Source of the DNA: Candidatus Muproteobacteria bacterium
GTDB lineage: Bacteria > Pseudomonadota > Gammaproteobacteria > Acidiferrobacterales > SPGG2
Length of the DNA stretch: 38,722 nt
Direction of reading: 5' to 3'
Assembly (NCBI GenBank): GCA_003251795.1
Contig: QKEI01000244.1
Coordinates: forward strand, 1 to 38,722
The first letter of the stretch is position 1, and each line of letters opens with the position of its first letter. Positions 10,723 through 30,200 of this stretch are shown here, in pieces. The notes beneath the pieces are model-generated. The model searched no databases. It worked only from the letters and a program-made list of their open reading frames with translations, and was not told the DNA's origin. The translations under genes were made by a program, and so were the position numbers.

Positions 10723-11319
10723 TCATCCTTCACGCCTCAGTTTTAGTCGCAGACCACGTATGCCGAGCGCGCGCAGACGCTGATCGGCGGCATCGAGCTC
10801 ATTGAGATTGCTATAAGGTCCAAGGCGCACGCGGTGGTACTCGCCTTTGCCCTCGATCGCCACTTTCTGGATATGTGCCACCAGCCCGTTGAGCGTCAAC
10901 TTCGCCTTAAGACGGTCGGCGTCTTCGAAGCGCGCGAATGAGGCCGCCTGTAACACGTAGCTCACGTCCGCCGGTGTGGCAGCGCCCGCCGGCTTGCTTG
11001 TCGCAGCGCTTTCCTTTTCTGGCAACACGGTCTCGATCTCCGGCAGGATCGTGTAGAAATCGTATTTCGGGATTCTTGCTGCCGGTGCCTCCACGGTCGG
11101 AGCTTTTTCAGTGGCGCGCTGGGGTTTTTCGGCGCTGCTAAACAGCGTGTTCAGGCCACTGCCGGGTGCATTCGTGCGGTGCGCCAAGAGCTGCAGCAGT
11201 ACCGTGAGCGCAATGCCCACGGCAAGCCCGAGCGCCAGCAGCGACCACGTAGGCCACGACCCAAGCCTGAGTTTGAGCTTACGTTTGCGCCTGACGGTTT
11301 TTCTGCGCTTCTTGCCCAT
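10723..11319 (-). CDS. SPOR-domain cell-division-type membrane protein (FtsN-like)
   Basis: The 198-aa protein has a very basic cytoplasmic N-terminus (about 20 residues rich in Lys and Arg), one membrane helix (about 24-47), a Pro/Ala-rich linker with KYDFYTILPEIE, and a C-terminal SPOR domain (about 118-196: YVLQAASFARFEDADRLKAKL ... YHRVRLGPYSNLNE). SPOR domains bind denuded glycan strands at the septum. The motif KYDFYxxLPExE is typical of the FtsN-like genes found directly after argS in many Gammaproteobacteria, as here with an 8-bp gap. It probably belongs to the divisome, but a definite FtsN assignment would need comparison with other SPOR proteins in the genome. Confidence 0.88.
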   Translation of the reverse strand: MGKKRRKTVRRKRKLKLRLGSWPTWSLLALGLAVGIALTVLLQLLAHRTNAPGSGLNTLFSSAEKPQRATEKAPTVEAPAARIPKYDFYTILPEIETVLPEKESAATSKPAGAATPADVSYVLQAASFARFEDADRLKAKLTLNGLVAHIQKVAIEGKGEYHRVRLGPYSNLNELDAADQRLRALGIRGLRLKLRREG

Positions 11320-25907: not shown

Positions 25908-27064
25908 CGGCGATGTTGGCGCCCTACGCCGCCAACGAGGTCAATTCTCGCGGCCGGACCCATGTAGAGCCGCCACCATTGTATCGTGGGGAATATCAGC
26001 GCGATCGTGATCGCATCATCCACTGCGCTGCTTTTCGACGTCTGGAATACAAGACGCAGGTATTTGTCAATCACGAGGGTGACCTGTTCCGTACTCGCCT
26101 GACGCACTCGCTGGAGGTGGCGCAACTCGGTCGTTCGGTGGCCCGCGCGCTGCGACTCAACGAGGATCTCACCGAAGCGATCGCGTTGGCGCACGACCTG
26201 GGCCACACGCCCTTCGGCCATTCGGGGCAACATGCACTGAACGAGTGCATGCGCGAACACGGTGGCTTCGAACACAACTTGCAGTCGTTGCGCGTGGTCG
26301 ATGTGCTGGAGGAACGCTACGCGGAATTTCCGGGTCTCAATCTCACTTTCGAAACGCGCGAGGGCATACTGAAACACTGCTCACGCGAGAATGCCAAGAA
26401 GCTCGGTGAGCTGGGTGAACGTTTTTTGCACAACAAACAACCGAGCCTGGAGGCGCAGCTGGCCAACGTCGCTGACGAGATCGCCTACAATAACCATGAC
26501 GTCGACGATGGTTTGCGCTACGGTTTGCTCGACATCGAGCAGCTCATGGATGTAGAGCTATTTGCCAGCGAATATGATGCGCTCGGCAAGCGCTACCCAC
26601 AGCTGCCGCTGCGCCGCCGCGTGCACGAAACCATTCGCCACATGATCAACCGCGTGGTGGTAGATCTGATCGAGCATAGTAGCGAACGCTTGACTACGCT
26701 GAAGATCAAGACCATCGATGATGTACGTGGCGCGAAGCAGCCGTTACTGGCGAACACGGAAGAAATCGCCGGGCAGGCACAGACGCTTAAGCAATTCCTC
26801 AGAGAAAATCTCTATGACCATTATCGGGTGCGACGCATGAGTCGAAAGGCCGCACGCATCATCAAACAGTTGTATAGCGCCTTTATCGAAGATACGCGCC
26901 TGTTGCCGACTCAATACCAGGAGAAGCTTGCGACCGACCCTGCCCTCAGGGCGCGGGTAATAGCCGATTACATTGCCGGCATGACCGACCGTTACGCCAT
27001 CCACGAGCACGCGCGGCTGTTTGATCCAGCCGAGCTCACGTGGGGCGGCGAGCCGCCGGTCTAG
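25889..27064 (+). CDS. dGTPase-like HD-domain deoxynucleoside triphosphohydrolase
   Basis: The 391-aa protein has the ordered blocks of the bacterial dGTPase-like (Dgt type 2) family: [20 protein letters not shown], the [16 protein letters not shown] segment, [15 protein letters not shown] with the first His of the HD site, [15 protein letters not shown] with the His-Asp pair, [11 protein letters not shown] and [17 protein letters not shown] with the fourth ligand. Such enzymes hydrolyse dNTPs to deoxynucleosides and triphosphate; the preferred substrate cannot be told. The ATG at 25889 overlaps aroB by 19 bp; the ATG at 25913 (MLAPYAAN) is an equally plausible start. The position between aroB and gltB is where some relatives carry damX or an SPOR gene. 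Confidence 0.93.
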
Positions 27065-27096
27065 CCGGCAACGCCCTTTTCCACACCGATATTCAT

Positions 27097-27125
27097 TTGA
27101 ACGCCTACAGGGCGGTCTGTATACT
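27097..27125 (+). promoter_or_regulatory. Sigma-70 promoter of gltB
   Basis: TTGAAC (27097-27102) and TATACT (27120-27125) are spaced by exactly 17 bp, with four and five matches to the consensus hexamers. The start point near 27132 would give a leader of about 47 nt to the original gltB ATG at 27179, or about 110 nt to the ATG at 27243. Confidence 0.7.
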
Positions 27126-27178
27126 CCTTCGGGTTCTGCCCATATTTTGGCCAATTCTAGGCCAACTGGTTGTTATCT

Positions 27179-27242
27179 ATGCCCTTTCCACCGAATCTGA
27201 CAAGCGGGCTTTATCGCCCTGAGTTCGAAAAGTTTCGGACTC
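27179..27242 (+). pseudogene. gltB: Original 5' end of gltB, out of frame after an apparent 11-bp deletion
   Basis: From the ATG at 27179 the codons read [18 protein letters not shown], which is the propeptide expected directly before D-N-C-G-F-G-L in glutamate synthase large subunits. After AAG (27230-27232) a single T remains, and then TTC GGA CTC (27234-27242) encodes F-G-L in the frame of the main gltB reading frame. The four codons for Asp-Asn-Cys-Gly have therefore shrunk from 12 bases to 1. The Cys is the N-terminal nucleophile of the glutaminase domain in this family. In its own frame this segment runs out of frame into gltB and stops about 120 bp further on. Confidence 0.85.
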
Positions 27243-30200
27243 ATGGCACACATGGACGGCAGTACCAGCCACTGGTTGGTGCAGACCGCCATTGGCTCGC
27301 TCGCACGCCTCACACACCGCGGCGCCATCGCCGCTGACGGCAAGACCGGTGATGGCTGCGGGCTGCTACTGAAGAAGCCGGACGGTTTCCTGCGCGAGGT
27401 GGCGCGCGAACAGCGGCTCAAGCTAAAGGATCTCTACGCCGTCGGTATGGTGTTTCTCGATCGTGATGCTACGCGCGCCAAACGCGCACGCGAGCGCCTG
27501 GAGCAGGAACTCAAAGCCGAAGGTCTCGAGGTCTGCGGCTGGCGCGACGTGCCAACCAACCCCGATGCCTGCGGGGCCGAGGCACTCAAGACCTTGCCCG
27601 CTATCCGTCAGCTATTCGTCAATGCCCGCGCAGACATGGATGAAGCCGCCTTTGAGCGCCGCCTCTATGTCGCCCGACGCCGATGCGAGAAGGCGCTTGA
27701 GCCTGAAGACGAGCGTTTCTACGTGCCGAGTCTCTCGAGCAGAGTGATCTCTTACAAGGGGCTCGTCATGCCGGCCAACCTGCCGGTGTTCTATCGTGAT
27801 CTCAATGATGAGCGCATGGAATCCACGCTGTGCCTGTTTCACCAGCGCTTTTCCACCAATACCTGGCCGCAGTGGCGTCTGGCGCATCCCTTTCGTTATC
27901 TCGCGCACAACGGCGAGATCAACACCATCCAGGGCAATCGCCTGTGGGCGCTGGCGCGCGCCCCCAAGTTCCGCACGCCGCTGATCCCCGATTTCGAGGA
28001 CGCCTACCCGTTGACATCCATGACCGGCTCCGACTCCTCGAGCCTGGACAACATGCTGGAGGCATTGCTGGCCGGTGGCATGGACATCTTCCGCGCCATG
28101 CGCATGTTGATTCCGCCGGCGTGGCAGAATGTCGATCTCGATCCGGATCTGCGCGCGTTCTACGAATACAGCTCCATGCACATGGAGCCGTGGGACGGGC
28201 CCGCCGGTATCGTGCTCACGGACGGCCGCTACGCTGCTTGCGTGCTCGACCGCAACGGGCTACGGCCGGCACGCTATGTGATTACCCACCGTGACGGTGC
28301 CGCTGCCGCCGAAGCAGGCGATTACAGCGGTTGCGTGATCACGCTCGCGACCGAGGTCGGCACGTATGACTACGCGCCGCAGGAGATCGTCGCCAAAGGA
28401 CGCTTGCGTCCGGGGGAGATGATCGCCGCCGACACGGCAACCGGAAAGCTGCTGTTGGCCAAGGATATCAACCAACTGTTAAAGGTGCGACATCCCTACA
28501 AACGCTGGTTGCGCGCGCACGCTCGACGCCTGGAAGCGACCCTGATGGAGGAAGAGTCGGCGAGTGTGGCAATGGAGCCGAAAGAGCTCGCGGTGTACCA
28601 GAAGCTCTTCAATATTACCTTCGAGGAGCGTGATCAGATTCTACGCGTGTTGGCCGAGGCAGGTCAGGAAGCCGTAGGATCAATGGGTGATGATACGCCG
28701 TTATCGGTTTTTTCCAGGCTGCCGCGCTCGCTGTTCGATTACTTCCGCCAACAGTTCGCCCAGGTCACGAACCCGCCGATCGATCCACTGCGCGAGCAGA
28801 TCGTGATGTCGCTCGAGACCTGTTTTGGTCGCGAGCACAACGTGTTCCAGGAAACCCCCGAGGATGCCGCGCGCCTGGTAGCCGATTCGCCGGTGCTGTC
28901 GGTTAGCAAGTTCAACCGACTGCTGGCCGATAACGACCCGAACTACGCGCATACCGTGATCAATCTGAGCTACCCGCGTGACGGTGACCTGCGCGCGGCC
29001 ATCGTCGACGTTTGCGACCAGGCGGTAGCGTCGGTGCGCCAAGGCAAGACCATGATCGTGCTCTCTGACAGGGAGATTGCCGAGGACAAGGTGCCGATCC
29101 ATGCATTGCTCGCCACTGGCGCGTTGCACCATCGCCTGATCGAGGAAGGCTTGCGTTGCGATGCCAACATCGTGCTCGAGACGGGCACCGCGCGTGACCC
29201 GCATCATTTCGCCGTGCTCATCGGCTACGGTGCCACGGCGGTCTTCCCTTACCTTGCTTATGATTCATTGCGCGGCATGATCGCTACCGGCGAGATCGGC
29301 GCACGCGACGCCGTGCGCGTGGCGCACAGCTATCGCAAGGGCATCAACAAGGGCCTCTACAAGATTATCTCGAAGATGGGGATCTCGACCGTCGACAGCT
29401 ACCGCGGCGCGCAGCTGTTCGAGGCCGTGGGGCTGAGCCGCGAGGTCGTTGACCTTTGCTTTGCCGGAACCCCGTGCCGCGTGCAGGGCACCAGCTTCCG
29501 GGACTTGCATGAGGATCAGGTGCGTCTCGCGCAGGCGGCCTGGAACCCGCGCAAAGCCATCGACCAGGGCGGGTATCTCAAGTTCGTGCACGGCGGCGAG
29601 TACCACGCGTTCAATCCGGACGTAGTCGCGGCATTGCACGCGGCCGTGCAGTCGGGCGAGTACGCCAAGTACAAGGAATTCGCCAACCTGGTCAACGGGC
29701 GCGCACCGATGGTGATTCGCGACCTGTTCGGCTTGCGCGCCGATACCCAACCCATCCCGATCGAACAGGTGGAACCGATCGAATCGATCCTGCCGCGCTT
29801 CGATTCCGCTGGCATGTCGCTCGGCGCGTTGTCACCGGAGGCCCATGAGACGCTTGCGGAAGCGATGAATCGCATGGGCGCGCGCTCCAACTCCGGCGAG
29901 GGCGGTGAGGATCCGAAGCGCTACGGCACCGAGCGCACCTCCAAGATCAAACAGGTGGCATCCGGGCGTTTCGGGGTGACGCCGGCCTATCTCGTCAGCG
30001 CCGAGGTGTTGCAGATCAAGATCGCGCAAGGCGCCAAGCCCGGCGAGGGCGGCCAGCTGCCTGGTCACAAGGTAAACGAGATGATCGCGCGCTTGCGCTA
30101 CGCACGCCCCGGCGTCGCCTTGATCTCGCCGGCGCCGCATCACGATATCTATTCGATCGAAGATTTGGCACAGCTGATCTTCGACCTGAAACAGGTGAAC

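Follow-up and report, generated by a model that had tools for sequence, protein, structure and literature searches.

According to PMC8097209, the glutaminase domain of glutamate synthase hydrolyses glutamine at Cys1, the ammonia passes through an internal tunnel, and 2-iminoglutarate is reduced at the FMN. No paper on a GltB without this cysteine was found in the literature searched. Uncurated metagenome assemblies are described in PMC7111523 as holding local assembly errors that lead to incorrect protein-coding sequences, 13 of these errors having been fixed in one 1.13-Mb genome, and chimeras of two organisms were rare in the experience of its authors.

The window analysed here is the 38,722-nt stretch QKEI01000244.1 (GCA_003251795.1) of Candidatus Muproteobacteria bacterium, whose genome is labelled G000. 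A sequence-only reading had announced that its gltB has apparently lost the codons for the catalytic cysteine. The bases are absent from the sequence, and the gap itself is confirmed; the evidence leans towards an assembly error instead of a biological loss, which is not established.

The start of gltB in the window

As shown in Table 1, the propeptide frame and the remaining gltB frame lie on either side of a single base. F-G-L-M-A-H-M-D-G resumes at 27234 (TTC GGA CTC ATG) in a frame different from that of the propeptide. In relatives of the same GltB type, four residues (D-S-C-G, D-G-C-G, D-N-C-G and similar) separate K, H or R from F-G. Twelve bases are therefore expected where one is present, so that 11 are missing, the catalytic Cys codon among them. 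Window gltB thus differs from a gene with an N-terminal catalytic Cys behind a short propeptide in one frame, as the Cys codon is absent and the two frames do not agree. When the sequence was re-read, the 11-bp gap, the end of the propeptide and the restart of F-G-L-M given by the sequence-only reading proved right to the base. Its expected motif, D-N-C-G, had the correct four-residue spacing and 12 bases, but the closest relatives (P0001 and P0002) have D-G-C-G.

In the downstream frame the nearest upstream stop is TGA at 27198-27200, and no ATG, GTG or TTG lies between it and ATG 27243, the first ordinary gltB start codon of this frame, which is 5 residues past the Cys site. The frame from there is open as had been claimed, and the window gltB is similar to the curated GltB model NF008730 over its whole length; the state of the synthase and Fe-S motifs was judged by this whole-model match. 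The partner small subunit gltD is present 3' of gltB.

The missing block is not of the homopolymer type, in agreement with the sequence-only reading. No direct repeat of at least 8 bases abutting the lesion was found in 27140-27340, and the only nearby repeat pair found does not abut it, which leaves a replication slip without an explanation from repeats. Shortly 5' of the gltB start, the promoter-like match is followed by a terminator-like hairpin at 27147-27165; the two could be a leader attenuator or a chance occurrence.

Table 1. Features of the window around gltB and the ammonium transport genes
Feature	Start	End	Strand	Details
glnK (P-II) and amtB (ammonium transporter)	3622	5293	+	End-to-end matches to their models
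Sigma-70-like promoter match upstream of gltB	27097	27125	+	Consensus match only
gltB propeptide reading frame	27179	27232	+	ATG 27179, last K codon 27230-27232; 18 of 18 residues as in P0001
Lesion point	27233	27233	+	Single T left, against twelve bases (four residues including the catalytic Cys) in relatives
GATase_2 (PF00310)	27234	28508	+	Profile positions 3-420 of 420; first two lost (Cys-Gly end)
Open gltB frame left	27243	31673	+	1476 codons, ATG start; NF008730, residues 1-1474 to profile 20-1480 of 1490, 2512.4 bits (cut-off 1047)
gltD, glutamate synthase small subunit	31782	33188	+	TIGR01318, 2-467 of 467, full length

Of the 26 further proteins of the window, 17 had NCBIfam matches, which covered close to the full length for 16 and fell at the window edge for the seventeenth; the other nine had no NCBIfam match at 1e-20 and hence are uninformative on window quality. 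Where it could be tested (these 16 proteins and GltD, all near full length), the window otherwise looks clean.

The catalytic cysteine in related genomes

The closest protein among the matches listed was P0001, a JGI metagenome GltB of 1502 aa with 94% identity over 1476 aa. It carries the identical 18-residue propeptide followed by an intact D-G-C-G in one frame. A Cys-Gly motif was present in 110 of the 120 homologues listed (8000 scored). The ten records without it (P0018, P0025, P0039, P0045, P0046, P0054, P0088, P0090, P0101 and P0118) begin at the Met of M-D-G or M-D-A in nine cases and later in one. They are probably start-codon calls, because the DNA of 132 other loci shows the Cys, a reading that rests on the DNA of those loci and not on that of the ten.

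Within the order, 54 of 57 genomes gave a gltB match. DNA at the Cys point was read in all 53 other genomes (54 loci), and the Cys was in frame in 53 of 53; the sequence-only reading had proposed a comparison with close relatives. The 65 rows of this search comprised 53 that begin at residue 14 or earlier, 11 later pieces, and G000, which alone began at residue 22. Since PF00310 loses only its first two positions and the Cys is kept in all 53 of these genomes, the gap in the window is more than chance.

Among the matches listed in the class search, only those of G000, G094 and G263 began beyond residue 10. G094 was rejected as a second Cys-less gltB because a contig end cuts its match, and G263 because its Cys is in frame and the frame breaks later. 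Taking the order genomes and the named genomes from the collection scan together, 132 of 137 loci had the Cys at the DNA level, a count in which some genomes occur in both collections. The five loci without it were the window's own (L001) and four contig-edge matches (L057, L060, L062 and L063). No lesion common to relatives was seen in the order search or among the class-search matches listed, and the gltB lesion is unique among the loci examined.

Other kinds of damage to gltB were also observed. The gene on G263:C216 (L115) has an internal frame break with an intact Cys, so frame breaks do occur in the draft genomes searched, and gltB carries one in-frame stop on G038:C40 (TAA) and on G338:C10 (TGA).

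Age of the lesion

Between GltB of the window and P0001 there are 87 residue differences and one gap. With P0002 and P0003 as outgroups, 24 derived changes were assigned to the window and 24 to P0001, while 39 were undecided. The glutaminase part, taken as residues 1-405 with the domain border set by hand, held 4 of the window's 24 derived changes and 9 of the 24 of P0001. At columns at least 95% conserved, the window, P0001 and the nine other relatives counted departed 14, 11 and 3-14 times, respectively. Compared with P0001, window GltB showed no excess of derived changes, either overall or in its inactivated domain. More changes would be expected if the gene, or just its glutaminase half, had long been without selection, and a long-standing pseudogene or relaxed gene was rejected on these counts. 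The change counts thus speak against an old loss and do not separate a recent mutation from an error. The intact form in so near a relative as P0001 likewise places any loss late.

Quality of the assembly

The G000 assembly consists of 306 contigs, with a completeness of 94.58% and a contamination of 4.93%. Its contig number and contamination, rather than a label, suggest that it is a metagenome assembly. Frame breaks were surveyed in 494,999 bases of G000 including the window (of 3,672,488), against 1,598,814 bases of the single-contig relative G014 (of 3,958,814). The 85 gene territories surveyed contained two frame changes with conserved flanks, namely the glnK/amtB overlap and a lesion on contig C100; the latter was the one further clear frame break beyond gltB in the approximately 495 kb covered. 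One survey pass retained 55 territories (61,485 bases). Ten frame changes of mixed identity in one survey pass were set aside as noise or gene overlaps, C100 excepted, and nine stop rows from six queries were rejected as gene breaks, having been taken on inspection by hand to be antisense or to lie before the start.

On C100 (L158), an ABC transporter ATPase gene lacks 13 bp in conserved codons at about position 11173, and its frame is broken. In the same bin, contig C266 (L194) has a version of this gene that is free of the break. At its contig end, C266 starts with 145 bases identical to C100 11029-11173, and the first difference thereafter is the 13-bp gap in C100. The overlap (C266 1-2164) showed 93.4% identity over 2166 bp and 93.8% over 2004 aligned positions after the first 145 bases. 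It stops at the C100 end in an identical run of 129 bases. No G000 contig other than C266 matched C100 at the overlap. Each of the two contigs ends inside sequence common to both, as would be expected at assembly-graph forks.

The two contigs differ at 128 points (125 mismatches and 3 gaps), and the one long frame-breaking gap sits at the fork. This suggests that the 13-bp loss is possibly a fork artefact between relatives. Whatever causes the first difference between two contigs, a fork would begin there, and the overlap contains further identical runs of 106, 105 and 101 bases. A real deletion in one of two relatives could therefore give a similar picture; these runs weaken the artefact reading and raise that of a recent mutation. 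The end of C240 and the start of C260 (L200 and L202) also overlap, by 589 bp at 97.3% identity. Such near-duplicate contig ends look like mixed close relatives binned together.

At gltB, the DNA around the lesion (26900-27600) gave only short weak hits to other G000 contigs, the best with an E of 0.0989. A second contig overlapping at the lesion, present for C100 and C266, was thus not found there.

Nitrogen metabolism elsewhere in the genome

The sequence-only reading had proposed a search for a second gltB or a glutamate dehydrogenase. No second gltB was found in G000, and no detached GATase_2 besides the window's own, although at 94.58% completeness either could be missed. A glutamate dehydrogenase is present: the large NAD-glutamate dehydrogenase is intact on contig C208 (PF05088, 910.7 bits, profile 1-496 of 497, open frame of 1643 aa). 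A second ELFV dehydrogenase on C149 scored 216.5 bits against a curated glutamate dehydrogenase cut-off of 750, and is thus at most a candidate glutamate dehydrogenase. For a third, partial ELFV gene on C301 the best model was tryptophan dehydrogenase, at a score under that model's cut-off. Two glutamine synthetase domain genes were also found in G000. Given the intact glutamate dehydrogenase, a real loss of gltB could be survivable, which keeps the mutation reading alive.

Explanations for the missing bases

The sequence-only reading had listed a very recent lesion, an assembly or consensus error and a tolerated loss. This choice was appropriate, and all three were weighed. We consider it somewhat better than an even chance that the 11 absent bases with the catalytic Cys codon were lost through a local error in the assembly of a fragmented draft genome and that the living cell has no such mutation. 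At a join between sequences of co-occurring close relatives, or across a stretch of thin coverage, the assembler would have left out a few bases. The C100 loss would itself be an assembly fault, and the gltB gap would have arisen in a like way. In that case the organism's NADPH glutamate synthase would be an ordinary one that depends on glutamine, with hydrolysis of glutamine at Cys1, transfer of the ammonia by the tunnel and reduction of 2-iminoglutarate at the FMN site. This lean rests on the intact P0001 with its identical propeptide, on the lack of relaxed selection, and on the 13-bp loss on C100 in the same assembly. The intact allele in a close relative is also expected under a recent mutation. 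Because no contig overlaps at the gltB lesion, the artefact is argued there by analogy with the C100/C266 case. Against it stand a gap that is no homopolymer and has no abutting repeat, a window that is clean where testable, the missing overlap, and the rarity of two-organism chimeras noted in PMC7111523.

It is possible, with clearly smaller probability, that a real and very recent deletion inactivated gltB in the population and that glutamate is made by glutamate dehydrogenase instead. Translation from ATG 27179 would then end after a short frameshifted peptide, and the product from ATG 27243 would have neither the nucleophile nor the first part of the glutaminase domain. The deletion does stand in the sequence as given, the tested rest of the window is clean with no contig overlap at the lesion, no relaxed selection would be expected after a recent loss, and the intact enzyme on C208 together with the ELFV dehydrogenase on C149 would make the loss survivable. 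However, the Cys is kept in every other order genome with a match, a similar loss occurs at a contig overlap in the same draft, and a null allele of a central nitrogen gene would presumably have to dominate the sampled population in order to become the consensus.

Much less probable is a working variant in which the Cys-less GltB, translated from ATG 27243, is an ammonia-dependent glutamate synthase that receives ammonium via AmtB under GlnK control. The open frame with its intact synthase half and gltD would permit this, glnK-amtB lies in the same window, and the account in PMC8097209 of separate glutaminase and synthase sites, and of archaeal ORFs for individual domains, is consistent with it. 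Without Cys1, glutaminase activity would not be expected. Yet the form does not recur in any of the other 53 order genomes that gave a match, the propeptide is retained out of frame and unchanged relative to P0001, the glutaminase half shows no excess of changes, no separate GATase_2 gene was found in the genome as a replacement, and the intact form in the 94% relative points to a late loss. The suggestion that the loss is tolerated because the enzyme works with free ammonia gained no positive support. The glnK-amtB pair, which had been thought relevant, is indeed in the window and does not discriminate between the readings.

Programmed ribosomal frameshifting that fuses the propeptide frame with the downstream frame is extremely improbable, for although skipping one base at 27233 would join the two, the fusion would still be without Cys, and in each of the 53 other order genomes read here the Cys belongs to the downstream frame.

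A local assembly error, which we favour, would make gltB a cautionary case, since what seems to be a lost active site may come from an assembler that left a few bases out of a draft genome. Such an error can be suspected even in the absence of reads when a near relative shares the propeptide and the bin holds a comparable lesion at another place. A real loss would be relevant to the question of whether an amidotransferase is able to shed its glutaminase half and depend on free ammonia. If the ammonia-driven enzyme were true as well, an amidotransferase would have stepped back naturally to ammonia dependence within a single species, with AmtB-imported ammonium feeding the synthase half.

Comparison with known systems

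The C100 lesion resembles that of gltB in that it is short, affects conserved codons, interrupts a gene of this draft that is open elsewhere, and belongs to the same size class. It differs in that a second contig, C266, gives the intact version and an overlap, whereas gltB has no second contig. Like the bacterial NADPH glutamate synthase large subunit (NF008730/PRK11750; solved relatives 6s6s, 1ea0 and 7mfm), the window protein has a near whole-length match to the family and gltD as the next gene; unlike it, window gltB as assembled is without the mature N-terminal Cys-Gly and is out of frame with its propeptide. The nearest among the proteins listed is P0001, which has 94% identity to the window protein and shares with it the propeptide and the GATase_2, central, synthase and C-terminal Pfam domains, but whose D-G-C-G, with the catalytic Cys, is read without any change of frame.
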